From Saprospiraceae bacterium (GTDB lineage Bacteria; Bacteroidota; Bacteroidia; Chitinophagales; Saprospiraceae), in NCBI GenBank assembly GCA_020631235.1, contig JAHDHQ010000005.1, positions 101,182 to 165,181 of the forward strand: a stretch of 64,000 bases of DNA, given 5' to 3'. The notes below the pieces were generated by a model that ran no database searches, had not been told where the DNA came from, and saw only the letters and a list, made by a program, of their open reading frames with translations. Below are positions 19,510 to 59,531 of the stretch, piece by piece. Made by a program: the position numbers and the translations under genes. Positions within the stretch are counted from its first letter, which is position 1. Each line of letters starts with the position of its first letter.

Positions 19510-19627
19510 GATTATTTATAAGTATATAAAAATAAGTAATTAACATATTATATTATAATTTAATATAATGCACTTTAATTTGATTCTTTCCTTTCGATGG
19601 ATAAATTGTAGTTTTGTTGCATTATAT

Positions 19628-20022
19628 CGAGCTATCGCTGTCCAAGTAAAATTGGAGAGAGGAAAGTCCGGACAACGAAGAGCACCATACCATCTAACGA
19701 ATGGAATTCACGTAAGTGAAGCTAGATAGTGTCGCAGAAAATAACCGCCACTTATACTTTTGTATTTGAGGTAAGGGTGAAAATGTGAGGTAAGAGCTCA
19801 CAACTTGTTTAGGTAACTAAGCAGGTGGATAAACCTTATGGGTTGAAATGTCATGTATATTCAGGTGTGGGGATTTAACCCATATATGACTTGCTCGGTT
19901 AATTTGTGAAAACAAAACCTGAAGGGGTAGGCAGATTGAACTTGTTTTGAGTCCAACTTAAAAGAGGTCTAGATAAATGATAGCTGTCTTATTATTTAAG
20001 AAACAGAATCCGGCTTATAGAT
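19628..20022 (+). ncRNA. rnpB: RNase P RNA (bacterial class A)
   Basis: Conserved blocks GAGAGGAAAGTCCGGACAAC, GGTAAGGGTGAAAATGTGAGGTAAGAGCTCACA, AAACAGAATCCGGCTTAT in the correct order and spacing. Confidence 0.95.
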
Positions 20023-20025
20023 ATA

Positions 20026-20062
20026 ATAAAAAAAAGAGGCTGTTACCATGTATCAGCCTCAC
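20026..20062 (-). terminator. Intrinsic terminator of porV paralog 2 (may also serve rnpB)
   Basis: GAGGCTG...CAGCCTC with an A-run, giving a T-run on the minus strand. Confidence 0.85.
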
Positions 20063-39604: not shown

Positions 39605-41929
39605 ATGCTGAGATCCAATTTCCTGTCAAATAAGTCTATCGGCTTAGTTGTACCATTATTAATAGTACTTCATTGTTCTGTTCCTGATTTACTATGCCAA
39701 AAAACTCTTGTCGATTCTTTAAATCAACTCATTTTAATAGAAAAAATTGACTCCGTTAAACTTGATTATTTGGATCAAATAATCACCAACGGAGGCTTGA
39801 AAGATGTGGCTGAGATAAAAACCTATTTCGAAAAAGGCAAGAGAATAAGTGGAAAAATTGGTGACGTTAAAAAAGGTTTGAATTTTCAGCGAAACACTGC
39901 ATATACCTTAATCGGAATAGGCGCTTTTGAGGCAGCAGAGGACATTTACCAAGATTTGTTAAATGAATGTATAGAAACGAATGAATTAGAATGTAAAGTT
40001 GATGCGGAATTAGACAAATGTTCAATATTGTGCAAAAAAGGTAAAGGTGATGAATGCATAAATTGTATGCAAAAAGCTGTAAATGATAGTCATGTCATTG
40101 GGTACAAATACGGTTGCGGATATGGTCATTATAAAATGGCTGCAAGACTAAGAAGTCAAGGTGATTTGGAAAAAGCTATTTTCCATCTAGATTCAGCTGA
40201 AATCATTAACAAACAAGAACCCAATGCTTTTCTTACCATTAATATCAATTTAATACGAGGAAGAATTTACAGAGCGAAAGGAGATTATGCGCTTGCCAAA
40301 GAACAATACCTGGCGACAGAAAAACTTGCTATGGATTTGGACTACCTAGATGACTTGAAAGTAATTTACAATAATTTAGGTACCATTGAACAAACACAAG
40401 GAAACTATGAAAGCAGCATTGAATATTATGTAAAATCAATAAGGATAAAGGAGAAATTAAATGATACTAGAGGTTTAGCTGTAGGCTATTTTAATATTGG
40501 CACTATTCAAAATGACATGGAAGATTATGTGGGTTCTCTGGTCAATTTTGATAAGTCTATGAAGATTGCTAAAGAGATTAAAGATTATAGATTAATCATT
40601 TTAAACCTGTTACGTTACGGGGATGTAGCCAAAGAGCAAAAAGAATTTGATAAAGCAATAGCCTATGAAGAAGAGGCTCTAGCTCTTTCTTTAGAGCATC
40701 AATACAAAAAGGGCCATGTAACATCACTGTACCATCTTGGTATCATTTATCAATGGATGGAGAATTATAAAAAATCGTATGAATATTTTTTCATTCTTCT
40801 ACCCTTAGTACAGGAAATGGGTAGCAAGCCCTATGAAAGTGCTACACTGGCAGCAATAGCTAAAAATTATGTTAGCGAGCGAATGGAAGATAATTTCATG
40901 GAAAGCACTTTGGTTCAGCATGAAATGCTGAACGATGATAATATTCTAAGATTACTTGCAAGAGCTGATGATTTAGCCAATTACATGGAGGCGCCAGAAA
41001 ATAAAATGGATGTATTACAGGCTTTAGGGTTATTCCATAAACAGAAAAAGAATTACAAGCTATCCACCGAAGTACTCACACGATATATGTCATTAAAAGA
41101 CAGTCTTTTTACGGCAAATAGAAATAAATCAGTGGCAGAATGGGAAACTAAATTTAATGTAGCTGATAAAGAAAGAGAAATTGTTAAACTCGAAAGTGAA
41201 ACTAAGATTGCTGAATTAAGGAATCAACGAAATAAATCAATTTTGTTAGGTACTATTTTATTCTTTATCGGATTTATAACCTTTGGTCTTACGTATCTAA
41301 AACAAAGAAACGCCAAAAGGGAAGCAAAGAAGACAGAAGCTTTCAGATCGAAACTTTCTAGTGATCTGCATGATGATGTAGGGTCTATATTGACTGGCTT
41401 AACGATGCAGACAGAGCTACTGGAAATGCATGTGGGAGAATCCAATAGACATCATTTTGAAAAAATTGGAGAAATGAGTCGAAGTGCGATGTCAAGAATG
41501 CGGGATACTGTATGGGCGATAGATTCGAGGAAAGATAAAATCAACGATTTAGTGGATAGAATGCTAGATTTTAGCAATGATGCGCTTGCCCCAGCGGGCA
41601 AACGTTTAATCTTTGAGAATAAGATAAACAACATTGAACAAAAGATTAAACCTTCAGTTCGTCAAGCCTTGTATTTGATTTACAAAGAGGCCCTTACCAA
41701 CAGTATAAAACACAGTCCTGGAAAAGAAGTGAATACCAAGCTGTCTATGGATGGAAACATTATAAAAATGGAGATATCTGACGAAAATCAAGGCCTATCA
41801 AGAGATATTCAAACTTCGGGAACAGGCATTAGTAATATGCAAATGAGGGCTGAAAAATTAGGTGGACATTTTAGCTATCGGATTGATGACGGATTTCATA
41901 TCACAACTTCGATTCCTACCAATGCTTAA
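39605..41929 (+). CDS. TPR-containing sensor histidine kinase (HisKA_3/HATPase)
   Basis: Signal/TM, multiple TPRs (GTIEQTQGNYESSIEYYVKSIRIKEKL), C-terminal SKLSSDLHDDVGSILTGLTMQTELLE, YLIYKEALTNSIKHS, SGTGISNMQMRAEKLGGHF. Confidence 0.93.
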   Translation: MLRSNFLSNKSIGLVVPLLIVLHCSVPDLLCQKTLVDSLNQLILIEKIDSVKLDYLDQIITNGGLKDVAEIKTYFEKGKRISGKIGDVKKGLNFQRNTAYTLIGIGAFEAAEDIYQDLLNECIETNELECKVDAELDKCSILCKKGKGDECINCMQKAVNDSHVIGYKYGCGYGHYKMAARLRSQGDLEKAIFHLDSAEIINKQEPNAFLTININLIRGRIYRAKGDYALAKEQYLATEKLAMDLDYLDDLKVIYNNLGTIEQTQGNYESSIEYYVKSIRIKEKLNDTRGLAVGYFNIGTIQNDMEDYVGSLVNFDKSMKIAKEIKDYRLIILNLLRYGDVAKEQKEFDKAIAYEEEALALSLEHQYKKGHVTSLYHLGIIYQWMENYKKSYEYFFILLPLVQEMGSKPYESATLAAIAKNYVSERMEDNFMESTLVQHEMLNDDNILRLLARADDLANYMEAPENKMDVLQALGLFHKQKKNYKLSTEVLTRYMSLKDSLFTANRNKSVAEWETKFNVADKEREIVKLESETKIAELRNQRNKSILLGTILFFIGFITFGLTYLKQRNAKREAKKTEAFRSKLSSDLHDDVGSILTGLTMQTELLEMHVGESNRHHFEKIGEMSRSAMSRMRDTVWAIDSRKDKINDLVDRMLDFSNDALAPAGKRLIFENKINNIEQKIKPSVRQALYLIYKEALTNSIKHSPGKEVNTKLSMDGNIIKMEISDENQGLSRDIQTSGTGISNMQMRAEKLGGHFSYRIDDGFHITTSIPTNA

Positions 41930-42549
41930 GCATTAAATAATTTTAATAGTTGTCCTTTTGAGTTGATTTGCAATAGCTCATAAATATTTTTTATGTGAGT
42001 TCTCACTGTATTGATAGAAATAAAATGAGTATCTGCAATTTGCTGGTAGGAGAGTCCTTCAGCCATAGACTTAACGATGTCCATTTGGCGTTCTGAAAGT
42101 TTAGATTCCATATCATTCTTTTTGGGTAGAAAATGATTAGCTATTTTTCTGGCGATGGATGGGGACATAAATGACCCACCTCGAGCCACAGTAAAAATGG
42201 ATTCCATAATTACTTTTAAAGAAACTTTTTTAGACAAATACGAGCATGCTCCAGAACATAATGCTTTAAAGATAGTTTCACTTTCATCATACGTTGTGAG
42301 CATAATGATATCTAAGGATGGATATTTCTTTTTCAATATTGGGATACCTTCTAAACCACTCATACCAGGCAGACCGATATCTAATAGTAATATGTCCACT
42401 TCCTTTCCTTTAGCTAGTTCCTCCAAACCATCTTCCACACTAAATGCTGAGAATACCAATTCCATCATCACTTGCATATCAATCGACATCTTTAAACTAT
42501 TATTTATGGTTTTATCGTCTTCTATGATGGCAACTTTGATAGCATTCAT
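41926..42549 (-). CDS. LuxR/NarL family response regulator
   Basis: VAIIEDDKTINNSLKMSI, DILLLDIGLPGMSGLEGIPILKKKYP, C-terminal HTH KLSERQMDIVKSMAEGLSYQQIADTHFISINTVRTHIKNIYELLQI. Confidence 0.96.
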   Translation of the reverse strand: MNAIKVAIIEDDKTINNSLKMSIDMQVMMELVFSAFSVEDGLEELAKGKEVDILLLDIGLPGMSGLEGIPILKKKYPSLDIIMLTTYDESETIFKALCSGACSYLSKKVSLKVIMESIFTVARGGSFMSPSIARKIANHFLPKKNDMESKLSERQMDIVKSMAEGLSYQQIADTHFISINTVRTHIKNIYELLQINSKGQLLKLFNA

Positions 42550-42588
42550 ACCTCTGAGTTATAAGTTTAATAGGAATATTAATCAATA

Positions 42589-42635
42589 TAAAGGTAGTTC
42601 ATCAAATTTTGATGCTTATCACATGAAAATGTGAT
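42589..42635 (-). promoter_or_regulatory. Response-regulator gene promoter: inverted-repeat operator + -7 box
   Basis: Minus strand: ATCACATTTTCATGTGAT (42635-42618) - N21 - TACCTTTA (42596-42589). Confidence 0.75.
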
Positions 42636-42639
42636 TTTA

Positions 42640-42672
42640 AAAAAGCGATAAAGATTAAACCTTTATCGCTTA
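42640..42672 (-). terminator. Intrinsic terminator of the 691-aa FN3 gene/operon
   Basis: AAGCGATAAAG attaaac CTTTATCGCTT with an A-run. Confidence 0.85.
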
Positions 42673-42694
42673 CCAAACAAATCTTAATTAAAGC

Positions 42695-44770
42695 TTAGTA
42701 ACTGACTACAGTACTTAGCTTTGATTCTTTTCCCTTAATAGATTTTACTTTTATGGCGTAACTATAGGTGGTATCTGTTTTTATTCGATCATCAATAAAC
42801 TCAGTGGTATTTTCTACTTTTTTATAGCTGGTCAATTTACCATCATTAGATTTGCGATAAATTAGAAAGTAAATGCCTTCCGTATCTTCATAGTTCCAAT
42901 TCAGTTCGCACGTTTGCTCGTTTTTACTAACAGACAAATTGTCTATACTTTTTAAATAATAGGCCTCCCCCAAGCTCACCATCATAATTGATGAATATTC
43001 ACTCAAGTTATTTGCATCATCTTCTGATTGGAGTTTGTATTTATATACTATGTTTTCGCTTATTTCATTATCTATATAATGAGTTGCATCAGGGGATAAC
43101 TCAGCTAATAGTTCCCATTCTTTATCCGATGTTTTTCTGAATAATTTTTGTTTAACTACATCGTGACTTTTGCTATTATTAAATAGGATTTCGATGGATT
43201 CTTCTGAATTTTTATAATCAATCATCACTGGGGCTGTCGGTGCTACAATATCTGGTTTCATGACCTTTAATATCTCAGATGGATCAGACTCATTAAACTT
43301 AAAGTCGATGGCAGTGACTTTGTAGTAAATCTCTTCAGTAAGTGTTTTAAGGTGCAATGAATCTAAGAAAAGTGTATCACCAAGATACTTAGTAGATCTA
43401 GCGGTAAACACTGATTTATCATCATTGGAAAAATAGACTTTATAATTAGCAACATCTGCTTCGGGTGATTTATTCCATCTAAGTAAAAGATAGCCTGAAC
43501 TATCAACTATTGCATTTAAACCTGTAGGAGAATCAGGAGGAGTAGTGTCAATCAAATTGGCCAAATGTCTCAATGATTGTACTTCGTTACTGGCAGTATC
43601 TATGGCAGAAACAAAGTAATAATTGGCTATTAAATCAGTTTGCTTATGTTGATAGTTTCTTGTATCAGGGCTTAATAATTGGTCATTTAGTTTAGTGAAA
43701 TATCCATTGGCTTTTGTAGAATGATAAATATCGAAGCCTGATAAATCTTCTTCTTTCATTTCTGCTTCCCATTCCCATGAAAGGTTGATGGACATGTTTT
43801 CTTCTTGAGTACTGCTAAGTTTTCTTGGTGGCGAAGTAGAAGTTTTGTCTCTTCCCATTAATTTTAAAGTATCAGAATATGGGCTAAGATGGGCAAAACC
43901 GTCAATTCCAGCAATTCGATAAAAACGTGGAACATAATTTTGTTTAATTGAGTCTGTAAATGAAATGTGATTATAGGGGCCAGACAAATTAGTTTTAGTT
44001 TGGATAAATGGAATGTCATTTAATCTAGTAAAATTTATACCATCGCTAGATTTTTCGATGTAAAAACCCGAATTTGATTGGCCCACATCCTTCCAAGTTA
44101 AAGTTACATTTAGATCATTTTCTTCAGTTGATACAATTTCTGGAGGGTATCTATAAACTGCACTTCTTTTTGAGATTTTATAATATACAGTATCACTGCT
44201 TATTTCTTTGGAAACATTACTTACATAAAGTTTGTAGAAGTATGTATAATCTGCGTCGAAATACTCTTTATGAGAAAGCGCCGAGGCTTCGGCACATTTC
44301 TCGGAAAAATCTGCGGCTAGAAGTGCAAGACCAAATTTATTATTCATCTCCTCTTCGACCTTTAAATAGTTTGAAGAAGATGATTGTTGTTTCCCATAAA
44401 TTGCTTGTGCTGCAACTAAAGGAAGCTTATTTTCATTATCACTAAATATTTTCCAGTCGTCTAAAGGCCAAGGTTTAATAGGAGAAGAACTGACTTTCTT
44501 AAAAAGCACATTGTCTGCATGTCTTAAACTATCATTTTTTACTTTTTTTAGTTCTAACACATAGCCATTGGAATTGGCGATCTCCCATAATGGATAATTA
44601 TTAGGTGCCCACCTAAGGCAAATATTGCCATTATATATTTTGCCAATTAAACTCAATGATCGTTCTACTTTAGTTTGACTAGTTGTATCTGGATAGCTTT
44701 CTTCTTTTTCTTGTCCGTTTAACAATGTAAAGGACCAAAAAAGTAGGCTTATTAATATTGTATGCTTCAT
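42695..44770 (-). CDS. Secreted fibronectin type III repeat protein
   Basis: Signal peptide; FN3-like units such as PPDSPTGLNAIVDSSGYLLLRWNKSPEADVANYKVYFSNDD. Confidence 0.82.
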   Translation of the reverse strand: MKHTILISLLFWSFTLLNGQEKEESYPDTTSQTKVERSLSLIGKIYNGNICLRWAPNNYPLWEIANSNGYVLELKKVKNDSLRHADNVLFKKVSSSPIKPWPLDDWKIFSDNENKLPLVAAQAIYGKQQSSSSNYLKVEEEMNNKFGLALLAADFSEKCAEASALSHKEYFDADYTYFYKLYVSNVSKEISSDTVYYKISKRSAVYRYPPEIVSTEENDLNVTLTWKDVGQSNSGFYIEKSSDGINFTRLNDIPFIQTKTNLSGPYNHISFTDSIKQNYVPRFYRIAGIDGFAHLSPYSDTLKLMGRDKTSTSPPRKLSSTQEENMSINLSWEWEAEMKEEDLSGFDIYHSTKANGYFTKLNDQLLSPDTRNYQHKQTDLIANYYFVSAIDTASNEVQSLRHLANLIDTTPPDSPTGLNAIVDSSGYLLLRWNKSPEADVANYKVYFSNDDKSVFTARSTKYLGDTLFLDSLHLKTLTEEIYYKVTAIDFKFNESDPSEILKVMKPDIVAPTAPVMIDYKNSEESIEILFNNSKSHDVVKQKLFRKTSDKEWELLAELSPDATHYIDNEISENIVYKYKLQSEDDANNLSEYSSIMMVSLGEAYYLKSIDNLSVSKNEQTCELNWNYEDTEGIYFLIYRKSNDGKLTSYKKVENTTEFIDDRIKTDTTYSYAIKVKSIKGKESKLSTVVSY

Positions 44771-44793
44771 GTTAATTTATTTGTGTTTAGCTA

Positions 44794-47700
44794 TTAAAAA
44801 GACACCTTAAATTTTTCTGAATGGAACGATGCACTATGCCAATCTTCGCTAGTATTTGCATTTAACGTAGGAAATCGATAATACATAGTTAAGTCCATAC
44901 GTATATTATTTTCTTTCCTTTTATAGAATTCATAATATTCGAAATCCTCTAACCACATATTTTCTTTGTCAGGATATATTTGCCCAATATTTTCTCCTAA
45001 ACCAATCTCACCTAGACCCTTATTACCTACTAAGTGATTTACAAAAGCAAGATCGGTTTTAATCATTATTGTCGTTTGATCCCAATTTATTGTATTTACA
45101 TTTCCTGAACTGATTTCACTTTCTGTAAGGCTTAGCGTGTTAGTTTCTGCTTTGTTGCCTATGCCAATTTCATCTTGAATTCTATGAGCTTTAAGCAAAG
45201 GATCTCCGGCAGTTTCCCATGGGAATGTTTTGTCATGTTTATCTCTAAATTCTCTCCAAGATTGCTGAACATTACTATTACTCCAACTCTCACCATTTGG
45301 ATTGCCGTGAATAAAATCGTAATAAGCACCACCTGATTCGTTTAAGCTTTTAGCGTATCCATATTTGTATAATTCTTGAAATTCTATTAAAGGTGGGAAT
45401 TGACGTCTACCATTTTTAGTAAAGCCTTCTAAATCAATCTTATCAAATGGCTCACCTTCATCTACTTTTATAGCGTTGCTCCATGGTACTTCAACTAATT
45501 TATAGTCAGGCACCCATGTTCCGGCACCATTTGGTTGCGGATTGTTGTAATCATAGTATCCTCCATTGCTAATGTATCGGTTAGCATATCTTAAAACCCC
45601 AATATGCTCTTTATTAACATCTACTTTTTCTTTGTAGGTGTTAAATTTACTTGTTCCAAAATAGTATTGATACATTACTTTATCTACCGTTTTTACAGTT
45701 GATTCAGAGACCACATCAAATGCTTTTATATTAGCTGTGTCTTGTTCAGTTTCATTTTTGATAACAATTTCTTTTGTTTCACCAGTTTGTGAATTTTCAA
45801 TGGTAGTTCTTCTAATAATTTCAACTAAATAAACCTGCTCATTATTTAAGCTTGGTTTGTTGTAACTTATATATTGATAATTTCCTTTAATGCTATTCAT
45901 AACTGATTCAGTAGAATTTCCGCTTGAGATTTCTGTATATTTTGCGATTAATTGTTGCTTATCATTTGATTTATTTATGACACTTGAATGGAGAGCACTT
46001 TTGAGTTTCATAAACCCTTTATCCCCATGGTTTTTCAGATGATATTTCTGTCCAATGATTGGATAAGTAAGATTTACCACTTGATCATCGATTTTATCTG
46101 GTGCAACACCAATTTTAAACTGATTACTTTTAAACTCTTTCCAAACTTCGGCCTGAAAATTCTTATTGAAGACTTTAAGGTCTTTGTTATTATCGTTAAG
46201 ATCTCTAGCTCTGATTTCTAATTGAACTGTATAGAATGTATTTTCCTTAAATTCATCACTACCATTGGTAATCCAAGTGAATTGTAAGCCATCTTGCTTC
46301 TTTACTTTATAGTATCCATTAATAATGTTGTTAGGTTTTGCTGTCTCGAATACTTTAAATGTATGAATGTAAGGTTCTAGCCTATTCCATTTATTATAAT
46401 TTTCGTGCTCAGGATCTTCCGATTTTCTAAATTTGTATTCTCTCAATTCATTCAAGAGTGTAAGATCAAAATCAGTATAAACACTCACTTCTTTATCGCC
46501 ATTTTTAGGGCTTAGCTCATCTATAAAAGCTATATCTCCAAAAGGACTGTTTCCAGTAGGGTCACACTTACTCCCAAAATCGACAGCGAAACCAATAGAG
46601 CCTTTTACTAATCCGTCTAAGACATTATAATTTAGTCTTCCTTTACCTGCCACCCAAGTTGGATTAGGACCTCCCCCCTTGACGGCTAATGCCGCAGATG
46701 CTTGGAAAATATTAATATATTCATCTACGAACCAAAGATCTACATGAACATCCACTGAGCCCCAAATTCCAGCATAGACTTGGCCTGTTGCATACCAGCC
46801 ATTTATACCGATCGGACTTCCATCACATAGTGTATTTTCGTTATGAACCATGGCGATATCAAAGCCCGCTGTTGCACCAAAGTTTACATGAACAAAATCA
46901 TAGTAAGTTTCATCCATATTATAATAGAATTGAAGCCCAAATGCAACACCTTTACCAACATCATATAGAGTTTGCTTCTTCTCCCTTTCGGCAATGGCTT
47001 TATCTAATCCAGCTGCATTGCCGTTATTGCTTGCCTCTTCTGTTTTATTTTTATATCCAGGATATTCTCCGCTTAGAATTTGATCAATTTCTTCGGGCAT
47101 GGAAGGCAGTTTATTGCTTAAGCCTGGACCAATCATGAAGTAGCCTGCGAGAATGGGTTTAGATTCTGAAGGAATGGCATGTATTCGTAGTTTTCCTCGT
47201 TCATCAACATCTTCTTTTTGAGGTTTCCCCATAAATACATACCAATTCTTAGGGTTTTCTGTTTCAAAATGCATCTCAGCTTCAACCATCAAACCATCAT
47301 TACCTGCTCCTGATATAACACCAGGCATATTTACATAGGTATCAAGCTTACCATGAAATACAAGCTCGGGATCTTTGGCTAAATTCGAAACATTAATATT
47401 TATATCTCCTTTGGCTGTAACCTTCGCATTCGCAGGATCACAACCTTTCCCAGTTAAAAAGTAGGCATTGGTTGATAGAGAAATATCTAAGCCTGTTCCT
47501 TCATTTGTAGTAAATTCTATTCCTAATGTTCCATCAGCAAAAAAGGTTTCCGTTTTCTCATATAGCCCTATAATTACAGATGCACTCAGACCCAAAGTGA
47601 CATCACCTTTATTTTGTGGTGCTTGAGGAGAGAAAGTCAAACCTGACGGATTTGCTGTTTCTTCATTTTCGGTATCATCTTCAGATGGAGTGATGCTAGC

Positions 47701-50700
47701 TAAATCAATTGCTTGGTCATTATCTATAGTCATGTTGTAATAAGCACCACCACCAAAACCATATAGACCTTGACCGGTGGTTCCTATTGGAACTCCTTTA
47801 GCTAGCTTAATTAAACCTTCTGCCTGCCAGTACGAATAATAATTAGACGAACCATAGTCACTAAAACTACTTCCTTCTTCTTTATAAGCTCCAAACTCTG
47901 TAGCTAGTTGAACATCCATACCTGCAGGTGTGCCTACCGCTAGGTTTCCTTTTACACCTTTATAATCATCTTCATTGTAGAAACTTAAATCTCCATCAAA
48001 GCTAAATCCGGATATAGAACCACCTACGGTCATGCTTTCTGGATTGACAGATTGTAATGTATAATATCCATTGTCCATAGAGCTGACAAAGCTTATCTCG
48101 GCGCTAGCTGTTAGCCCATCTTTATCCCCAACTAAACTAAGTTTTGGTTTTATGGTAAATGTTATTCCATTATCATCACCTTCAATGCTTGAGTATTCTG
48201 AGGGGTCAGCGTTTATTGGAATTCCATTAATACTGCCTTGAGCATCCTCATCAGTTGTATCTTCCTCATTTGCATCATTCTCTTGCGCTGCTAAGCTAAA
48301 ATCGGGAGCCGTAATTCCTTCTTTTGTACTTAATAAAAAACCTTCAAATCCTAGACCTGGAATATTAAAATCCATAGTTTCAGCAAGAGAAGCTACATCT
48401 TCTGGAAGTATATTTTCATTGATACTAATCACTCCATTTAGGATTGCTGAAATTGATTTCTCCGTTTTCGAATATTTGAAAGTGATTTTACTGTCACCTC
48501 TAAGTTCAATGTTGGCCACTAAGGCAGGAACTGTTAGTTGTTCATCAGGTTCAACACTAAATGTTATGCCTACAAAATCGTCTGAGACGTTATCATTAGC
48601 TTCTTCATTTATGATTTGGAGAGTACCTTGATAAGCAAGTCCTTCTCCTTTTTCTAATATGGGTAAACCAATTTGTCCGTGAATACTACTTTGTTCAAAA
48701 GTGTTTCGCACAATTTGTAGTTTGAAAGTATCTAAAGACATTGCCCAGCCATCAAAACTACCTTCATCTTTATTTAATATACCTCTTTGTTCGAATCCTG
48801 TTGTCAAACCATCTTCATCGATAATTAAGTGGTTTATTTCAAGGGCTAAACGATCTTCACTTAAGGCCCAATCTGCTGGAGTTTGCATGGTAAATCGTTG
48901 AATGTAAAGACCTTCCCAAGTATTGGCTTGATCCTCGTTTTCAAAATCTAGTACTTCAGATAAAAAGCCAAATTCATCACTATCTGCCATGTTTTCATCA
49001 AAAGGACTTTGTATATCTGATTGGTCAAAAACGGCTTCTTCTACTTCCCAACTAAAACCTGCTAATCCTGGTACTTGGAACGCACTGATACTTCCAGATA
49101 ATACATATTGATTTCCTTTTGAAAGATCTCCTTTTAAGTTGGCAACTACTTGTCCATCACCGATCGATCCATTGGTTCCATCTGGCAAAACTATATCTCT
49201 GGAAAAAGTAAGATCTGCCTGAATTCTACCTGAATCAAATCCATTACAATCCATTAAAATATAACAACCACTGTCTTGTGCAGCACCATCGCCAACGCCT
49301 CGAAATGACATTTGGTTTTCACCATAGCTAAAGTTATAATCACTCATCAGATATAATAAAACTCCTTTGTCAAAACCATTAGGTGAGAAATTAATTTGTG
49401 ATGCGGCAAAACTTGGCAATTCAATCCACTCTGGGTTTTCCATCGAAAACATAGCTTCTAATTCAGCATTAGTAGGTGTAAATAGCATATTAGAAAGGCC
49501 AATAACCATTTCTTGACCATCAATATTTCTATCCCAACCTAAAGGAAGACTTACAGCCTCGTCACCTGTTAATGCAGAAACTAGTTTGCTTGTATTCATA
49601 TAAGCGTCCCTTAGTTCAGCAGAACCATCCACGCCTAAAACTGGGATTTGAGCACCTAGATGTTCCACACCTTCTATCATGGGTGAGATTTCGCCATTAT
49701 CTTGCATGGCAATGGCTTGACCATTAAAAACTTGGTTTGATTTATTTACCTGCAAATCGGAAAATGCTACCTTGATACTTGCACCCGCTAAGAAATTTAC
49801 AGAAATTTCACCTTCTCCTGTATATCCATTTGCTTCATCACCATCACTTATGGTATTTATTTTCATAGCAAATTTTCCTATTTTAACTTCATCCTGTTCT
49901 TCAATTTCAATGTCATTTTGATCCGTTGGAAGTTGTGTGCTTGTAGTGCCGACACATCCTCCTTCATCATTGGCCACAATTTCTTCATCTTCGTCCTCGA
50001 TTTCTTCTTCAGGTAATGTCCCAAAGGTGAAATGAATCACCTCACTATGTCCGCCAAATTGGAAAGCAACTTGATTTTCTGGGTCTATGGCTTTTAATTT
50101 AACAGCATAAGTATGTCCATATTCTAATAGGTCTTCATTATCATTAGTATTAAGTGAATAACCATTGTCTAAGTTCTGTAGATATACCTCAAAAGCATCT
50201 ACATTTGGAGTAAACATGGCTTCTTGTTTTTGGCTTATTGGATAATTATTGGCCGTTAAATCGATCAGCTTTAATTCGTATTCTATCCGATCTTTTAATT
50301 CAAAGTCAGTTAGATTATGTATCCAATTCAGATTGATAATTTCAAAATCTTCAAATATTTGATCATTAAAGGGGAACATGATCTCAGGCCTAGAAGGAAA
50401 TTCTGCAGTAAAGGAAAAACAACTTATCTCACCTGGTTCTGATAATGGTTCACCAAATTCACTAAAGGCATGAACACAAATTTCGTATTCTCCTTCTGGT
50501 AGTTGTCTGTACAATAGTAAGTTATTTCTTTGTTCGTCTGACAAGCCTTGAATATTTGCATCTTGATCCGATAAGCCAGCGAAGGCTTCCTCTATCTCAT
50601 CTTCACCAAGAATCGTTGATCCGGGTCCGAATATTATTGATTGGTTACTGAGTCCATCGAGTTCAATACTGAAGCCACCTGTTTGCTTTAGAGAAGCAGA

Positions 50701-50907
50701 AAATATAGCTTCTACTGGTTCGCTAGTATTATTATTTACGATAAAAATTCCTGTTTCTAAATATTCTGAATAGGCCTCTAAATTGGTAGGGAAAGGAGGC
50801 GTGAGTAAAACACTAATATCCAAGGGGTAAGTATTTTGTCCAATGCTGTTTGTAACACATATTAGAACTGTTAAAAGGATCCATAGGAATTGATGTATTT
50901 TTTTCAT
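44794..50907 (-). CDS. Giant secreted surface protein (2037 aa), possibly TANFOR-type
   Basis: Signal peptide; N-terminal PPFPTNLEAYSEYLETGIFIVNNNTSEPVEAIFSASLKQTGGFSIELDG and FRPEIMFPFND-like segment; acidic linker PEEEIEDEDEEIVANDEGG; no recognisable T9SS CTD. Confidence 0.78.
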   Translation of the reverse strand: MKKIHQFLWILLTVLICVTNSIGQNTYPLDISVLLTPPFPTNLEAYSEYLETGIFIVNNNTSEPVEAIFSASLKQTGGFSIELDGLSNQSIIFGPGSTILGEDEIEEAFAGLSDQDANIQGLSDEQRNNLLLYRQLPEGEYEICVHAFSEFGEPLSEPGEISCFSFTAEFPSRPEIMFPFNDQIFEDFEIINLNWIHNLTDFELKDRIEYELKLIDLTANNYPISQKQEAMFTPNVDAFEVYLQNLDNGYSLNTNDNEDLLEYGHTYAVKLKAIDPENQVAFQFGGHSEVIHFTFGTLPEEEIEDEDEEIVANDEGGCVGTTSTQLPTDQNDIEIEEQDEVKIGKFAMKINTISDGDEANGYTGEGEISVNFLAGASIKVAFSDLQVNKSNQVFNGQAIAMQDNGEISPMIEGVEHLGAQIPVLGVDGSAELRDAYMNTSKLVSALTGDEAVSLPLGWDRNIDGQEMVIGLSNMLFTPTNAELEAMFSMENPEWIELPSFAASQINFSPNGFDKGVLLYLMSDYNFSYGENQMSFRGVGDGAAQDSGCYILMDCNGFDSGRIQADLTFSRDIVLPDGTNGSIGDGQVVANLKGDLSKGNQYVLSGSISAFQVPGLAGFSWEVEEAVFDQSDIQSPFDENMADSDEFGFLSEVLDFENEDQANTWEGLYIQRFTMQTPADWALSEDRLALEINHLIIDEDGLTTGFEQRGILNKDEGSFDGWAMSLDTFKLQIVRNTFEQSSIHGQIGLPILEKGEGLAYQGTLQIINEEANDNVSDDFVGITFSVEPDEQLTVPALVANIELRGDSKITFKYSKTEKSISAILNGVISINENILPEDVASLAETMDFNIPGLGFEGFLLSTKEGITAPDFSLAAQENDANEEDTTDEDAQGSINGIPINADPSEYSSIEGDDNGITFTIKPKLSLVGDKDGLTASAEISFVSSMDNGYYTLQSVNPESMTVGGSISGFSFDGDLSFYNEDDYKGVKGNLAVGTPAGMDVQLATEFGAYKEEGSSFSDYGSSNYYSYWQAEGLIKLAKGVPIGTTGQGLYGFGGGAYYNMTIDNDQAIDLASITPSEDDTENEETANPSGLTFSPQAPQNKGDVTLGLSASVIIGLYEKTETFFADGTLGIEFTTNEGTGLDISLSTNAYFLTGKGCDPANAKVTAKGDININVSNLAKDPELVFHGKLDTYVNMPGVISGAGNDGLMVEAEMHFETENPKNWYVFMGKPQKEDVDERGKLRIHAIPSESKPILAGYFMIGPGLSNKLPSMPEEIDQILSGEYPGYKNKTEEASNNGNAAGLDKAIAEREKKQTLYDVGKGVAFGLQFYYNMDETYYDFVHVNFGATAGFDIAMVHNENTLCDGSPIGINGWYATGQVYAGIWGSVDVHVDLWFVDEYINIFQASAALAVKGGGPNPTWVAGKGRLNYNVLDGLVKGSIGFAVDFGSKCDPTGNSPFGDIAFIDELSPKNGDKEVSVYTDFDLTLLNELREYKFRKSEDPEHENYNKWNRLEPYIHTFKVFETAKPNNIINGYYKVKKQDGLQFTWITNGSDEFKENTFYTVQLEIRARDLNDNNKDLKVFNKNFQAEVWKEFKSNQFKIGVAPDKIDDQVVNLTYPIIGQKYHLKNHGDKGFMKLKSALHSSVINKSNDKQQLIAKYTEISSGNSTESVMNSIKGNYQYISYNKPSLNNEQVYLVEIIRRTTIENSQTGETKEIVIKNETEQDTANIKAFDVVSESTVKTVDKVMYQYYFGTSKFNTYKEKVDVNKEHIGVLRYANRYISNGGYYDYNNPQPNGAGTWVPDYKLVEVPWSNAIKVDEGEPFDKIDLEGFTKNGRRQFPPLIEFQELYKYGYAKSLNESGGAYYDFIHGNPNGESWSNSNVQQSWREFRDKHDKTFPWETAGDPLLKAHRIQDEIGIGNKAETNTLSLTESEISSGNVNTINWDQTTIMIKTDLAFVNHLVGNKGLGEIGLGENIGQIYPDKENMWLEDFEYYEFYKRKENNIRMDLTMYYRFPTLNANTSEDWHSASFHSEKFKVSF

Positions 50908-50931
50908 GTTAGTAGATTGAAATATATTTGA

Positions 50932-52662
50932 TCAATTAGTTTTTTTAGGTTTGGATGTTGACTTGAAATCAGTCAAAAAGCTGTAACCAACTCTGGCTGT
51001 TATTCTTAATTCTTCGAATGGATTTTCAGACCTTGATCTATTTAAATAAGAGACATTTAACTGGCTACTAAAAGCTTTTGAGGGTTTGTAGCTCGTACTT
51101 ACTTTTGTGCTTAAGGTGTTTCCATCTTGATTGAAATCGAGAAAGTTTAAATGATAAGAGCCTCCTAAGTTTATCTTCCATTTATTTTCAAAAAGTTTTT
51201 TACCAAGTTTAAGCGAAAGACCATAGCGCTGAGTATTTCTGTCAGGAAATTGATTTTCAGAATAATTGAGCCCAGTTGAGAGGATGAGTTTTTTTGGTTT
51301 AATGTTTATGTTATAGCTAATATTACCATTGTAATTATCTATGTTTCTTTCTTCATCTAAGACACTTAATACATCAACTAATTGCTGAGCATTAGCGTTT
51401 AGAGTAATGCTAGAAGGGTATGTTTTGCCTAATTTGACACGAATAGTTCCACCTTTTATATTGGTTGTTTGGGCATATCTTAAGGTATCAGACACGTTAA
51501 TAAATCCTGGTGTTCTGTCTGTTTGGAAATTAGAATATCTTGCAGACACAACTAACCATTTTGAAGGAATTAAACTTAAGGTTCCATTGGCAATCTGTCG
51601 TTTATTAGTATAGCTTCTTAAGCTATTTAAATTATTTCTTTGAACACCTCCTGATCCGTTAAAACGAAGTCTATTTTTCCAAGCTGTGAGATTAAACTTG
51701 ATGGTATAATTTTCGAGATCCTCTTGGAAATAATAGATGCCTAAACTTTTATAATGTGGATCCACTCTTTTATAGTTAGCGCTTACACCAAAGTTTTTAA
51801 ATTTTAATCCTACACTTGCATCACCAGCAAATTCTAAGCGGGTGGAAAGATTAACAGTAAATAGTTTATCGAGTTGTTGGAGGCTATTATTTGAACTTGA
51901 ATCTATGAGTTCTATAGCAGAATTTTGATCTAAAGTAATAGCACTTGCAGCGACATTTGCCCCAATAAAGAAAGACTTAAATAGGGTAACTTGGAAAGCG
52001 CTTCCTAAGGCAATATTTTCTTCAGCTTTTACCCATTCATTGAGTTCATCGGGAGATGTGATCAGTGGGTTGTCCTTGGCTCTGAGGAAATTAAATTCAA
52101 TGTAGCTCTTATCATTTCCAAATCCTGTAAGTAGGGTTAATGCTTTTCTTTTATAAGTTTCTAATAATTCTATATTTCCAACCAAAGTATCAATTTGAGC
52201 CAATGGGTTTTCTAAGTTTCCGTAAGCTGCCGAGAATCTAAATTTGCCTGGCGTTAATTCTACACCTCCACCTTTAATAACTTGTCCATTAAAAATGTAA
52301 GGGTTTAGATTAAGTCGTACATTTCCAGCTTGAAGCGAAATCCATTTCCATCTTGGATTAATTGCGTATCTGTTAAATGGGTTGTTTAGTGAGCTCTGCG
52401 AATCTCTGTATGTAAACGACATTGGAACACTAAATCCATAGATAGAAAATGTTGTATTTGCTGAAAGAAAATAGCTAAATGGGCTTCTTCTGGAATCAAT
52501 CCCAAAAGCATCGTAAGCAGAAGAACCAATACTTATGTTTCCATTAATTTTAAATGGATTGTTTTTATCAAAGTTTTCTAAATTTTGGCTTTTTATATTG
52601 TTTAATGCCCCAAAAAAAAGCAACAATGATAGAGTCAATTTAAGAAGATAGGAATTTTTCAT
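50932..52662 (-). CDS. Outer-membrane beta-barrel protein, first gene of the surface operon
   Basis: Signal peptide MKNSYLLKLTLSLLLFFGALNNIKSQ; regular beta-barrel strands. Start revised from 52722, which lies in the operator. Confidence 0.75.
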   Translation of the reverse strand: MKNSYLLKLTLSLLLFFGALNNIKSQNLENFDKNNPFKINGNISIGSSAYDAFGIDSRRSPFSYFLSANTTFSIYGFSVPMSFTYRDSQSSLNNPFNRYAINPRWKWISLQAGNVRLNLNPYIFNGQVIKGGGVELTPGKFRFSAAYGNLENPLAQIDTLVGNIELLETYKRKALTLLTGFGNDKSYIEFNFLRAKDNPLITSPDELNEWVKAEENIALGSAFQVTLFKSFFIGANVAASAITLDQNSAIELIDSSSNNSLQQLDKLFTVNLSTRLEFAGDASVGLKFKNFGVSANYKRVDPHYKSLGIYYFQEDLENYTIKFNLTAWKNRLRFNGSGGVQRNNLNSLRSYTNKRQIANGTLSLIPSKWLVVSARYSNFQTDRTPGFINVSDTLRYAQTTNIKGGTIRVKLGKTYPSSITLNANAQQLVDVLSVLDEERNIDNYNGNISYNINIKPKKLILSTGLNYSENQFPDRNTQRYGLSLKLGKKLFENKWKINLGGSYHLNFLDFNQDGNTLSTKVSTSYKPSKAFSSQLNVSYLNRSRSENPFEELRITARVGYSFLTDFKSTSKPKKTN

Positions 52663-52688
52663 AAAGCCTCTATTTAAAGAATGTACTG

Positions 52689-52735
52689 TAAAATTAAAGA
52701 GCAGCAAAGCTATTTTAATCACATAAAAATGTGAT
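52689..52735 (-). promoter_or_regulatory. Surface-operon promoter: inverted-repeat operator + -7 box
   Basis: Minus strand: ATCACATTTTTATGTGAT (52735-52718) - N21 - TAATTTTA (52696-52689), 34 nt before ATG 52662. Confidence 0.75.
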
Positions 52736-52797
52736 TTAAGAGGGGTTAGTGCTCATTATTTCTAATGCTTGAAGTACAATAATTACCTTGTGAGGAA

Positions 52798-52833
52798 TAA
52801 AAAAAGAGGTGCAAAATAACATTGCACCTCTTA
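52798..52833 (-). terminator. Intrinsic terminator of the 1656-aa cargo gene
   Basis: AAGAGGTGCAA...TTGCACCTCTT with an A-run. Confidence 0.88.
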
Positions 52834-52855
52834 GACTTTTATATATAAACCATCA

Positions 52856-55800
52856 TTACTTAATTATTGATATTTGTTTGCTTGCTTTGATATTTGGGCC
52901 AATTATTTGGAGCAAATAATTACCTGCTGGAATCATAGAAATATCAATAGTTTCTGTAATGGAATCTGTCTGATTAATTGTTTGCTTATGTACCAACTGT
53001 CCTTGATAGTTAAAAACATTCAATGTGCCTTCAAAATATTCTGAAGATTGTAAATCAACAGTTATGTGGTTTGTTGCAGGATTCGGATAAGCCTTGAATG
53101 AGTTTACAATAGTTAAATGTTGATTTGAAGAAATTGTTTCTATAACTGTCTCAAAGGTGCTAGTACAACCGTGCACATCAGTTACATAAACTTCGATTCT
53201 TCCTTCGTTTAATCCTTCGGCAAAGCTTCCTTGTTGACCATCTTCCCACTCAAAATCAAAGGGACCATCACCTTCAATAACTGTAATGTTTGAAGTTCCA
53301 TCGAAACCTGCAGGACTAGCTGGTGTATTTTCAAAACTAACTTCTATGGTAGGTGGATTTTCAAGAAGGGTGCTTTGAGTTGCCTGGCAACCATTAGGAC
53401 CAGTTACTATCACGGTGTAGATTCCAGCTACACCTGCTTGGATGTTTTGATCAAATGATTCAAAGCCCTCAGGCCCATTCCATTCGAAACTTGAACCATT
53501 TGGAGGGTTCGTTAATGTAATATCTCCTAAGTTGTCAAAACAGTCGATTATGCTTGCTTCTAAATCAAATACTGGATCATTAAAATCAGCTAAAACTTCT
53601 ACAGTTGATGTCACACTACAACCGTTTGCTGCAGTAGCTACGACTGTATATTCTCCAGCATTTTGAACCAATGGATTAGGGTCAATAGATATAAATCCAT
53701 TGGGTCCAGTCCACATGACTGATACATCATCATCCGAAGTGACAGATAAATTAATTACTGCATTGTTACAATCTAGTGTGCCGCCTGTTGCAAAAATTTC
53801 GGGCGTTACCACATCACTAAATACTTCGACTGTTGCTACAGAGACACATCCATTTGCACTAGTAGCTTCCACGGTATAAAATCCAGCTTCCACAACTGTT
53901 GGGTTAGGCTCAGATGAAGTAAAACTACTCGGACCGCTCCACAAATAGCTTACTTCAACATCAGCGCTTGCTGAGATGACAATAAATTCATTTTGGCAAT
54001 CTAATGTCCCACCTGTTATTTCTACTTCGGGAAATTCAAAATCTTCTTCTATCGTTAAAGAGGCTACTCCCGAACAACCGTTTTGTCCAGTTACAGTTAA
54101 AACATACATTCCTCCTTCAGAAACTTCTGGCGTTAATTCACTGGATGTAAATCCATTGGGACCAGTCCACATAATATTGATGTTTTCACCTTCCACACTT
54201 CCTTGTAAATTAGTTGTTGGCTGAGCACAATTTATTTGACCGTCGAAAACCACGGGGATTGGTGAATTAAAATCTTCTTCAATTACTATAAATGTGTTAG
54301 CATTACATCCATTGGTACTTGTAACTTCAATGGTGTAAACACCAGGTTCAGCTACTTCTATGTTTTTATCATCTGAAGTAAAGTTATTAGGTCCCGACCA
54401 TGCGTATATTACATCTTCATTATTTATCTCGACATTGATAATAACTGTACTATTATTACAATCAATAACTCCACCGGTTAATGATATAACTGGTAGATCA
54501 TCATCAGCAGTTACTTCTACCGTCATCATACTAGTACAACCATTGGTGCCGGTTGCAACCACAGTATAGCTTCCAGCCGTATTTACTTGAGGATTTGCGA
54601 TTGCTGCTTCGAAATCATCCGGACCAGTCCACATATAATTTACGTTTTCATCTGTTGAATTTGCACTTATGGTAATCACGTTGTTTTCACAATTTAGTAA
54701 ACCACCAGTGGCTGTTAGATCAGGTCCTTCACCATCAAAGCTTACTTGTACCATAACAGAATTCATGCAGCCATTTTGACCTATTGCAGTTGCGGTATAA
54801 TCTCCTGCTTCACTAACAATAGGGCTTGATTCTTCACTAGAAAATCCGTTCGGTCCTTCCCATTCAAAAGTTACTCCTTCATCTGGGGATGAAACTGAAA
54901 TAGTAGTGCTTTCATTGGCACAATTAAGCATTCCACCCTCCGCAATGACAACGGGAATGGTTAAATCTTCTGAAGCAACGGCTAAGCCAGTAGCGACACA
55001 GCCATTAGGTGCCATTATAGTCACTGTGTAAATACCTGCTTCATCAACAGATATTGTAGATTCATCGCTAGTAAACCCGTTAGGCCCAGTCCAAGTATAT
55101 GTGACACCTTCTGTGTCTGAACTGGCTGACAAACTAGTTTCTGCATTATTGCAATCGATTACTCCACCAACGGTGGTTAAGTCTGGAACATTGGTATCGG
55201 TTAACACCTCCACTTGGGCAGAAGCAGTACATCCATCTAATGTTTCAGCAGTTACAGTATAAGTACCAGCTTGGCTTACGATTGGATTTTGTTCGTTCGA
55301 AGAAAAACCACCTGGACCTTGCCAAGAATACGTTACATCCGATGTAGAGTTTGCTGACAAGGTTATTGCTCCCCCTTGACAATCTAAGGTTCCACCTTCA
55401 GCCGTTAAATCAGGAGCTGTTTCAAAATTTACATTGATATTATCTTCAGCGCAACAACCATTTTCTGAGTAAACAACTACAGAGTAATTATCAGTTGTGT
55501 TTACCGTAATGCTTTGGGTTGTTTCTCCAGTGGACCACAAATAACTAGTGCCTGCTTCTGCTGTAATTTCATAATCAGGCACATCGCACAATACTATATC
55601 TTCTCCTAAATCGATAGAGAAATTATTTTCAATGGAAACATTCCAATTGTATGATACGGCGTTTCCACAATAATCAGAAGCCGTATAGGTATAGGTGTAA
55701 ACTTCAACGATATTAGCATCACAATCATCTGTAGAAGAAGTAATAGTAAATTCAATTAAGTCTGAAACATCTCCATTGCAAGCATCCATGCTCATTAATA

Positions 55801-57796
55801 CTGGTGGATCTGGAAATTCGTCACCACATTGAATGACAACATCAGCTATCTGGCCTGATAAAATAGGTGCTTGAGTATCAACTAATTCTATAGATAAAGA
55901 GGTAAACCCTATAACACCGCATGCACTTTCTGCTTGATATTCAATAGTAGTCAAGCCAGATGATGATCCATCACATTCTGCGTCGAAAAAGCTACCTGAC
56001 TCAGATCCAACAACTTCACCATTACAAGTTCCTGCACTCGGAATATAACTATCGATGATCTCTTGTAAATCATCTACTCCACATTCGCCGGTAACCAACA
56101 TTGGTAAATCAAAAGGTGCTAGCCAGACCGGTTGTAATTGGTCTGTAATTATTACTTCATAACTTGCCTCAGCAATATTTCCACAAGCATCTTCGATTAT
56201 GAAGGAGTGTGTTTCAGTCTCAATAATCCCACTTCCATCAGAACAATCATTAGCTACAATTGAAATGGTTTCGATTAATCCAAAGGTAACATCTCCTTCA
56301 CAAGCATCATCTGCGAATATATCTACTCCAATAGCAGGAATATTTGGTAAAAAGTCATCGCCGCAATCATACATAATTGGTTCAGATGGGATACCACTAA
56401 TAATAGGAGCTTGTGTATCTAAAAGCTCTACAGTTATGGATTTATAGCTTGAACTAACTACATCAGGAAAAGGTCCATTTTCATTTCCTGTTTGGTACCA
56501 TTCAGTTAAACTATTTGCTCCGCCACAAATATTTAATTCGTATGCATTATCTAATTTTTCTATCCAATTTTCAAGATTAGGACAATTGTCAGTAACACTT
56601 AAATTTGCTTCTTCATCTAAAATCATTTGGGCTGCATCGTCAACCCCACATTCTCCAATTAATGTTATATTTAAATCTCCTGTAAAAGAAGGTGCAATAC
56701 CATCCATTACACTCACGACGGTTTGACAAGTTGTTTCATTCCCATTTCCATCTTCAATAGACCAATTATAGGTATAATATCCAGGGGTATTACTCCATGA
56801 GTATGGAAATGAACTGCCTGGAATTAAACCGTAAGGACCGAATAAAGTGCCATCAGGGTCAATCAGGGTTACTAGCCCTGATACATCACAATTGTCCATA
56901 AACGTGGGATCAATGATTTCCCATTCTGCTTCACAATTCTCATCAAAGAATACATCAAAACTAGTTGGACATTCCACGAAAACCGGAAATTCAGAATCCG
57001 TAGCTTCGAGTAAAAAATTATAAGCTGGACTTGTACAACCATAATCATCTTCCACAAATATATTGTTCTCACCTGTTTCTATCCATAAATTAATAGCTTC
57101 TACATTTGCTGATGTGGAATTACTTAAATCATTTGCATAAACAGTCGATGCAGCACAAATTCCATCTTCCACCACAATGTCAATTTGTGCTTCAGAGCCA
57201 GGGCATTCTGGCGCTGATCCATTTAAAACGACACTGGTCACAGATGGACAAATATTTCCAAATACAATTTCAGAATAGAATACTTCTGAAAAATAGCTTG
57301 CTTGAAAATTATCATTACAAATTTTTATTTTCCAAATTCCATCAGCATTAATACCATCATCGTTAAGACTGCCAAAATCATCCTCAGGTTGTGATTCCAC
57401 ATAGTATAAACTGCTCCATGTATCTTGAGGTGTAGGGAGTGAAGGACACGGAATGTATCTCACAGCACAAATTCCTCCAGACCATCCGGGAAATGATCCT
57501 GAAGTGGATGCTGCCATTACAAATTCTGAACCATCGGGTGCTTCTAATACTACGTCGACAAAATAGCCGTCAAAGACATCTATATCTATAAAAACTTGAG
57601 TAATGCCTAAATTATCAACGCCTAAATTGCCAATGCCGCTCACACTCACATTAATTTCTTGAGGAGCTCCTACACATTCGTCAAATACAGGACCGGTAAA
57701 GTCTCCAACGAAAGTTTGTGCAAAAGCACTTCCTGTTAAACTTATAAAAAGTAAAATTTTTAAATAATTAATAATGGTAAGTAGATAGGATTTCAT
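52856..57796 (-). CDS. Giant T9SS cargo: P-domain-like N-terminus, HYR-like region, tandem Ig-like repeats, CTD
   Basis: N-terminal GNLGVDNLGITQVFIDIDVFDGYFVDVVLEAPDGSEF; about 9 units of xGGxLDCxN...WTGPNGFTS...AGxYTVxxTxxNGC; CTD AYPNPATNHITVDL...PAGNYLLQIIGPNIKASKQISIIK. Start revised from 57826. Confidence 0.88.
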   Translation of the reverse strand: MKSYLLTIINYLKILLFISLTGSAFAQTFVGDFTGPVFDECVGAPQEINVSVSGIGNLGVDNLGITQVFIDIDVFDGYFVDVVLEAPDGSEFVMAASTSGSFPGWSGGICAVRYIPCPSLPTPQDTWSSLYYVESQPEDDFGSLNDDGINADGIWKIKICNDNFQASYFSEVFYSEIVFGNICPSVTSVVLNGSAPECPGSEAQIDIVVEDGICAASTVYANDLSNSTSANVEAINLWIETGENNIFVEDDYGCTSPAYNFLLEATDSEFPVFVECPTSFDVFFDENCEAEWEIIDPTFMDNCDVSGLVTLIDPDGTLFGPYGLIPGSSFPYSWSNTPGYYTYNWSIEDGNGNETTCQTVVSVMDGIAPSFTGDLNITLIGECGVDDAAQMILDEEANLSVTDNCPNLENWIEKLDNAYELNICGGANSLTEWYQTGNENGPFPDVVSSSYKSITVELLDTQAPIISGIPSEPIMYDCGDDFLPNIPAIGVDIFADDACEGDVTFGLIETISIVANDCSDGSGIIETETHSFIIEDACGNIAEASYEVIITDQLQPVWLAPFDLPMLVTGECGVDDLQEIIDSYIPSAGTCNGEVVGSESGSFFDAECDGSSSGLTTIEYQAESACGVIGFTSLSIELVDTQAPILSGQIADVVIQCGDEFPDPPVLMSMDACNGDVSDLIEFTITSSTDDCDANIVEVYTYTYTASDYCGNAVSYNWNVSIENNFSIDLGEDIVLCDVPDYEITAEAGTSYLWSTGETTQSITVNTTDNYSVVVYSENGCCAEDNINVNFETAPDLTAEGGTLDCQGGAITLSANSTSDVTYSWQGPGGFSSNEQNPIVSQAGTYTVTAETLDGCTASAQVEVLTDTNVPDLTTVGGVIDCNNAETSLSASSDTEGVTYTWTGPNGFTSDESTISVDEAGIYTVTIMAPNGCVATGLAVASEDLTIPVVIAEGGMLNCANESTTISVSSPDEGVTFEWEGPNGFSSEESSPIVSEAGDYTATAIGQNGCMNSVMVQVSFDGEGPDLTATGGLLNCENNVITISANSTDENVNYMWTGPDDFEAAIANPQVNTAGSYTVVATGTNGCTSMMTVEVTADDDLPVISLTGGVIDCNNSTVIINVEINNEDVIYAWSGPNNFTSDDKNIEVAEPGVYTIEVTSTNGCNANTFIVIEEDFNSPIPVVFDGQINCAQPTTNLQGSVEGENINIMWTGPNGFTSSELTPEVSEGGMYVLTVTGQNGCSGVASLTIEEDFEFPEVEITGGTLDCQNEFIVISASADVEVSYLWSGPSSFTSSEPNPTVVEAGFYTVEATSANGCVSVATVEVFSDVVTPEIFATGGTLDCNNAVINLSVTSDDDVSVMWTGPNGFISIDPNPLVQNAGEYTVVATAANGCSVTSTVEVLADFNDPVFDLEASIIDCFDNLGDITLTNPPNGSSFEWNGPEGFESFDQNIQAGVAGIYTVIVTGPNGCQATQSTLLENPPTIEVSFENTPASPAGFDGTSNITVIEGDGPFDFEWEDGQQGSFAEGLNEGRIEVYVTDVHGCTSTFETVIETISSNQHLTIVNSFKAYPNPATNHITVDLQSSEYFEGTLNVFNYQGQLVHKQTINQTDSITETIDISMIPAGNYLLQIIGPNIKASKQISIIK
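53375..55425 (-). repeat. Protein-coding tandem repeat, about 9 units of 228-234 bp
   Basis: Recurring ACAATC(T/A)A...CCACC (reverse of GGxxDC) at near-constant 76-78 codon spacing. Confidence 0.85.
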
Positions 57797-57823: not shown

Positions 57824-57870
57824 CAAAAGTAATTTGATGATCCATCCTCTCAGTCACATGAAAATGTGAA
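57824..57870 (-). promoter_or_regulatory. Cargo-gene promoter: inverted-repeat operator + -7 box
   Basis: Minus strand: TTCACATTTTCATGTGAC (57870-57853) - N21 - TACTTTTG (57831-57824), 35 nt before ATG 57796. Confidence 0.75.
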
Positions 57871-59436: not shown

Positions 59437-59531
59437 AGCTTAAGTTTATTTGGTGCTTTTTCAGTGTTTAATAAATACAATGTCAAGATGATATAATTTT
59501 CTATTATGGTGTGTTAAAGGAATTTTAAAGT

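Follow-up and report, generated by a model that had tools for sequence, protein, structure and literature searches.

A conserved barrel-giant-FN3 gene module in Bacteroidota and its candidate regulon in a member of the Saprospiraceae

Does a group of neighbouring genes for a two-component system, a predicted outer-membrane barrel, a giant protein, an FN3-repeat protein and a T9SS cargo protein form a single surface system, and are its parts controlled together? The question is raised by a 64,000-nucleotide stretch of DNA (the window) from a Saprospiraceae bacterium, for which the initial annotation proposed a new surface system under dedicated signal control. The source genome (4.19 Mb, 98.8% complete) has a T9SS, as the translocon SprA is encoded. 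Those of its relatives that have named records are Saprospiraceae metagenome assemblies.

Gene families and transcription units

A check of open reading frames recovered all six genes as they had been described (6/6). A TPR sensor histidine kinase of the HisKA_3 type is encoded on the plus strand (39605..41929; TPR, HisKA_3 and HATPase matches). Its gene converges with, and overlaps by 4 bp, the minus-strand gene for a NarL/LuxR-type response regulator with receiver and GerE domain matches (41926..42549). Also on the minus strand are the genes for the barrel (50932..52662), the giant (44794..50907) and the FN3-repeat protein (42695..44770), followed by an intrinsic terminator that folding places at 42640..42672. 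This stem-loop (-17.6 kcal/mol, z = -5.8) is followed by a T run on the minus strand. The gaps between the three genes are exactly 24 and 23 bp, as first reported, and these short distances together with the common terminator support the view that the genes form a single operon. An Ig/PKD-repeat surface protein, the Ig cargo, is encoded at 52856..57796 on the minus strand, with its start corrected to the ATG at 57796. A terminator at 52804..52832 sets this gene apart from the barrel operon as a transcription unit of its own. A generic promoter scan gave matches at or below chance. Two minus-strand genes without a Pfam match (window 58030-60869; 468 and 445 amino acids) separate the Ig cargo gene from a pantothenate kinase gene. 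The window also contains an ordinary class A RNase P RNA (19619-20033, plus strand).

The barrel is a protein of 576 amino acids with approximately 24-26 predicted strands. Its true start is the ATG at 52662, since orthologues begin at the same methionine, and a longer reading frame that reaches 52722 is an artefact. No family in Pfam or NCBIfam contains this protein. PorP/SprF models match neither the barrel nor 49 orthologues in Pfam, nor the barrel in NCBIfam. Family searches with the barrel also gave no match to POTRA/TpsB or usher families, and its fold similarity to an usher is only TMq ~0.4. The predicted structure is a large barrel (pLDDT 84) for which a fold search returned generic large barrels only (TMq <=0.42). 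This modelled likeness to known barrels is only generic and points to no mechanism. Solved structures searched by sequence with the barrel and with the giant yielded nothing.

The giant is a large Bacteroidota protein of 2037 amino acids with a visible signal-like N-terminus for Sec export. It has no Pfam family. Its core (residues 305-1490; 46438..49995, minus strand) is predicted to form a long run of approximately 50 beta-strands (pLDDT 74), and fold searches of this core against PDB and BFVD returned beta-rich matches with TM ~0.1, none of them usable. Identity to the giant of a same-genus sister falls from 74% in residues 25-160 to 37% and 33% in the core and 18% at the C-terminus. The best-conserved part is the N-domain (residues 25-305; 49993..50835, minus strand), and the C-terminus (residues 1768-2037; 44797..45606, minus strand) is the fast-evolving end, although it remains homologous among relatives.

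The N-domain connects the giant to a published class of proteins. TANFOR has been described as the N-domain of polymorphic toxins, for which T9SS export was hypothesised (Jana, Salomon and Bosis 2020, PMC7073777). The TANFOR model TIGR02542 matches 14 of 22 relatives of the giant with a best E-value of 3.3e-12, all below the curated cut-off of 67 bits, and does not match the giant of the window itself. In searches of genomes the TANFOR matches are located at the N-termini of giants, and no TANFOR protein above the curated cut-off was found in the genomes searched. Judged from these profile matches, the first ~300 residues of the giant belong to the TANFOR superfamily as a diverged relative rather than as a curated member. 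Module giants share with TANFOR proteins a large size, Sec export, occurrence in Bacteroidota, this N-domain and the presence of FN3 and T9SS-cargo genes nearby. They differ in that their matches fall below the cut-off, in the absence of a toxin domain from the giants scanned and in having a dedicated barrel as a near-constant neighbour. The main text of the TANFOR paper does not mention a barrel (PMC7073777).

Only one of the proteins in this group carries a recognisable T9SS signal. The Ig cargo has the Sec signal and the TIGR04183/PF18962 tail of a type A T9SS cargo, and its sorting domain at 52868-53089 matches TIGR04183 with E=1.7e-11. In family searches, neither a type A nor a type B sorting domain was found in the giant, the barrel or the FN3 protein of the window. 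A profile of type A tails, constructed for this analysis, matches 0 of 239 module proteins, and none of the 22 giants matches any curated T9SS tail model. These searches confirm the reported difference between the barrel and giant, which lack a T9SS C-terminal domain, and the neighbouring cargo, which has one. The FN3 protein (691 amino acids) has an N-terminal signal sequence. A second, distant relative of it (23% identity) is encoded elsewhere in the genome (G000 contig C22:2143-3678).

A palindrome common to three promoters

The sequence TCACAT-N4-ATGTGA has exactly three exact copies in the whole 4.19 Mb genome, where 0.48 are expected from composition. All three precede genes considered here: narL (TCACATGAAAATGTGA, 42619..42634), the barrel operon (TCACATAAAAATGTGA, 52719..52734) and the Ig cargo gene (TCACATGAAAATGTGA, 57854..57869). 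Each copy is positioned exactly 22 nt before a -7 box of the form TAnnTTT(G/A). These minus-strand boxes are TACCTTTA for narL (42589-42596), TAATTTTA for the barrel operon (52689-52696) and TACTTTTG for the Ig cargo gene (57824-57831). No such palindrome was found at the kinase gene. The flavobacterial sigma-A box is TAnnTTTG at -12 to -5 (PMC9723704). With the box at this position, the centre of the palindrome would fall near -42.5. This is a common position for activators that contact RNA polymerase. To the extent that these motifs can be read from sequence, the promoters of narL, the barrel operon and the Ig cargo gene have an operator in common, set 22 nt upstream of a sigma-A -7 box.

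The arrangement is also found in relatives. Genome G109, from the same genus, has an exact palindrome ahead of two of the same three genes and a copy with a single mismatch ahead of the third. More distant relatives carry symmetrically altered half-sites, as in CCACAT-N4-ATGTGG and CTACAT-N4-ATGTAG, and the variant TCACCC-N4-GGGTG occurs with a more diverged NarL. A TAnnTTT box begins exactly 22 nt past the palindrome in 10 of 15 promoters and 23 nt past it in two more, against a background of 0.4% per position. Nine of all 162 perfect palindrome/strand cases from six loci show this arrangement, a single one of which is unrelated to the motif. Sites with two mismatches occur at chance level within the window, and genome-wide counts of sites with one mismatch are near those of a reversed control in most genomes. 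The operator signal is carried only by exact or symmetrically changed sites.

The probable binder of the palindrome is NarL, because its gene is linked to the others, a site is present at its own promoter and its recognition helix changes in parallel with the operator. NarL has the receiver and LuxR-type DNA-binding domain expected for a regulon of this type, the symmetric operator lies at the controlled promoters, and the phospho-acceptor aspartate is kept among NarL orthologues. Pairing of the kinase with NarL is putative and follows from their adjacency. The best NCBIfam match of the kinase is FimS (E=3.5e-19). As in the FimS/FimR control of fimbriae in Porphyromonas, a TPR histidine kinase adjoins a LuxR-type regulator whose target is a surface structure, but the kinase scores 68 bits against a cut-off of 600, the target genes are others and the operator is its own. 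The common operator substantiates the proposal of dedicated signal control. In one further locus (L066, 2530-2876), the barrel follows a NarL-type gene, and an imperfect palindrome, ACACAAAA...TTTTGTGT, is present between them; this may represent the same control with another operator.

Distribution and co-divergence of the module

Of the 150 family genomes surveyed, 62 carry the barrel and 65 the giant, with 54 carrying both (Fisher p=4e-21, without correction for phylogeny). Forty loci were picked at places of barrel hits and are a biased sample in this respect; nearly all have barrel, giant and FN3 genes in tandem on one strand, often with overlaps of a few bases. A minority have the order giant, FN3, barrel. 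One reading frame covers part of the giant together with FN3 in locus L036 (genome G090), a partial fusion. The same trio was recovered when an independent TANFOR profile was used to search the wider class.

At the level of the phylum, a barrel profile matches 129 of 396 genomes. Cultured carriers of the barrel, from a scan of a sequence collection with a five-sequence barrel alignment, include Flammeovirga pacifica, Flectobacillus longus and Allomuricauda chongwuensis. By-eye reading of gene maps places a TANFOR-type giant beside the barrel in 22 of 29 strong loci from this phylum search, and approximately one quarter of the strong barrel loci outside Saprospiraceae are without a detected adjoining giant. 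From these sequence comparisons, barrel-giant-FN3 is a conserved tandem module that recurs within the family and in numerous other Bacteroidota families. No description of such an operon was found in the literature, and the three-gene set is widespread yet apparently undescribed. The kinase, NarL and Ig cargo genes adjoin the module only in the clade close to the source genome. Of the five families expected to occur together, barrel, giant and FN3 therefore make up a widespread core that is co-inherited across genomes and not scattered independently, whereas the other genes are clade-local neighbours.

Several loci depart from the common layout. In Allomuricauda and Dokdonia (L138, L139 and L150), barrels of the same family lie ahead of shorter TANFOR-like genes, after which come several small ORFs that resemble toxin/immunity cassettes; no Pfam toxin was found in those loci scanned. 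Giants of the TANFOR type with approximately 4000 amino acids adjoin the barrel, together with an FN3-type gene, in L165, L167, L175, L181 and L187. Weakly related barrels of approximately 800 amino acids (L177, L178 and L179) have a different, conserved neighbourhood of genes for approximately 235 and 740 amino acids without TANFOR. TANFOR-like proteins of approximately 740 to 1270 amino acids from a different branch have no barrel detected nearby (L114, L118, L119 and L120).

Patterns of divergence at 34 loci indicate which parts of the module belong together. Pairwise barrel identity correlates with identity of the giant N-domain (rho 0.67) more strongly than with that of the giant core (0.35), whereas FN3 identity follows the core (0.48) more closely than the N-domain (0.31). 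The barrel contrast is positive in 500 of 500 subsamples and exceeds all 500 label permutations. Because N-domain and core reside in one gene, species history alone cannot account for this contrast, although it could also arise if barrel and N-domain were exchanged jointly without being in contact. The same barrel family accompanies giants that share only the N-domain (L102, L103, L109, L112, L115 and L116). Together, these observations lead to a layout model in which the barrel would be joined to the N-domain, and the N-domain to a core with FN3 and a variable tip. There is good reason to regard the barrel as the outer-membrane partner of the giant, a pairing that had been proposed before and is now backed by co-inheritance of the module and co-divergence with the N-domain.

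Alternative readings and a model of the system

An unlikely explanation takes the giant for a TANFOR-class polymorphic toxin, with the toxin in its variable C-terminus or in FN3 and the barrel aiding delivery to competitors. The N-domain is of the TANFOR type, the published TANFOR proteins are described as polymorphic toxins whose gene neighbourhoods are enriched in FN3 and T9SS cargo genes, identity is lost steeply along the giant, and the Allomuricauda and Dokdonia barrels are followed by short TANFOR-like genes and cassette-like ORFs. However, no toxin family was found in the 22 giants or the short TANFOR-like proteins scanned, and the giant has no recognisable, swappable C-terminal toxin domain. 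Of 53 giant C-termini, 39 fall in one cluster with an invariant residue (E1819); they are homologous, and the tail thus drifts fast but is not replaced. The gene directly 3' of the giant is FN3, followed by the terminator, with no immunity-like gene. Still less probable is an uptake channel for nutrients or polymers, in which the giant and FN3 would bind substrate at the surface in a SusCD-like manner. The barrel is large and two-component control genes adjoin the module. FN3 and Ig folds are also common in glycan-binding proteins. TonB-receptor plug, SusC and SusD families are nevertheless absent from all module proteins, the flanking genes include no degradative enzyme, and co-divergence of barrel and N-domain suggests a structural partnership instead.

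Somewhat less doubtful than either, though still improbable, is the idea that the T9SS exports the giant in the usual way by a signal that has escaped recognition, with the barrel as a PorP/SprF-like shuttle. A cognate barrel is often linked to type B T9SS cargo and needed for its secretion and anchoring (PMC12618676, PMC9143113), T9SS export is the published hypothesis for TANFOR proteins, the genome encodes SprA, and the surroundings of the module are enriched in T9SS cargo genes. As with SprB/SprF and the PorP-like shuttles of type B cargo, a barrel gene adjoins that of a giant surface protein (PMC9143113, PMC12618676). The module barrel may work like these in anchoring or shuttling, an analogy of role and not of descent, but it has no PorP/SprF match, the giant has no type A or B tail, and the pairing signal is at the N-terminus of the giant, whereas T9SS signals are C-terminal. 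Two-partner secretion (TpsB/TpsA) likewise has a barrel gene directly before a giant with a conserved N-domain; the module differs in that its barrel lacks the POTRA/TpsB family and its giant the haemagglutination-activity (TPS) domain. Finally, the kinase, NarL and Ig cargo might be mere neighbours of a barrel-giant-FN3 group that alone belongs together, since most Saprospiraceae modules are without them. This is very improbable, because the common operator is unique in the genome and is retained, at a constant distance from the promoter, in several genera, and because the Ig cargo gene adjoins the barrel in L121, L122, L123, L125 and L126 and follows an FN3-like gene in L034.

A signal-controlled cell-envelope module is the explanation that we favour as a whole, with moderate confidence; there is good support for viewing the genes as a single system with dedicated control. 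In this model, the TPR kinase would phosphorylate NarL, and a NarL dimer would bind the palindrome near -42.5 and activate all three promoters, including its own. Sec would take the barrel, giant and FN3 protein across the inner membrane. The barrel would insert in the outer membrane as the cognate partner of the giant via the TANFOR-like N-domain, and would either hold the giant there or let it through; it may be an anchor, a shuttle or a channel. The long beta core and FN3 would point outward and end in the fast-evolving C-terminal tip, and the Ig-repeat protein would arrive at the same surface through the T9SS. We guess that the cell uses the assembled surface for attachment or for contact with other cells.

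A more far-reaching but rather unlikely possibility is that the barrel acts as a translocon of the outer membrane, dedicated to giants that lack a T9SS tail and recognising them by their TANFOR-like N-domain. If so, Bacteroidota would have an own secretion route into which different bodies are plugged, scaffolds here and toxins elsewhere.

The initial proposal of a new surface system largely holds, except that the giant is not a wholly new type, given the superfamily of its N-domain. The module is accordingly a variant of the TANFOR class, and the shared operator that links the parts of the system is a new result. The published guess for the exit of TANFOR-class proteins is the T9SS, yet the giants scanned here have no T9SS tail. 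As a near-constant neighbour in this branch that co-diverges with the N-domain, the barrel is a direct candidate for their exit or anchor. The genome-unique operator would define a small regulon in which a giant system without T9SS tails is joined to a classic T9SS surface protein, and such a regulon lets expression, export and function be tested together.
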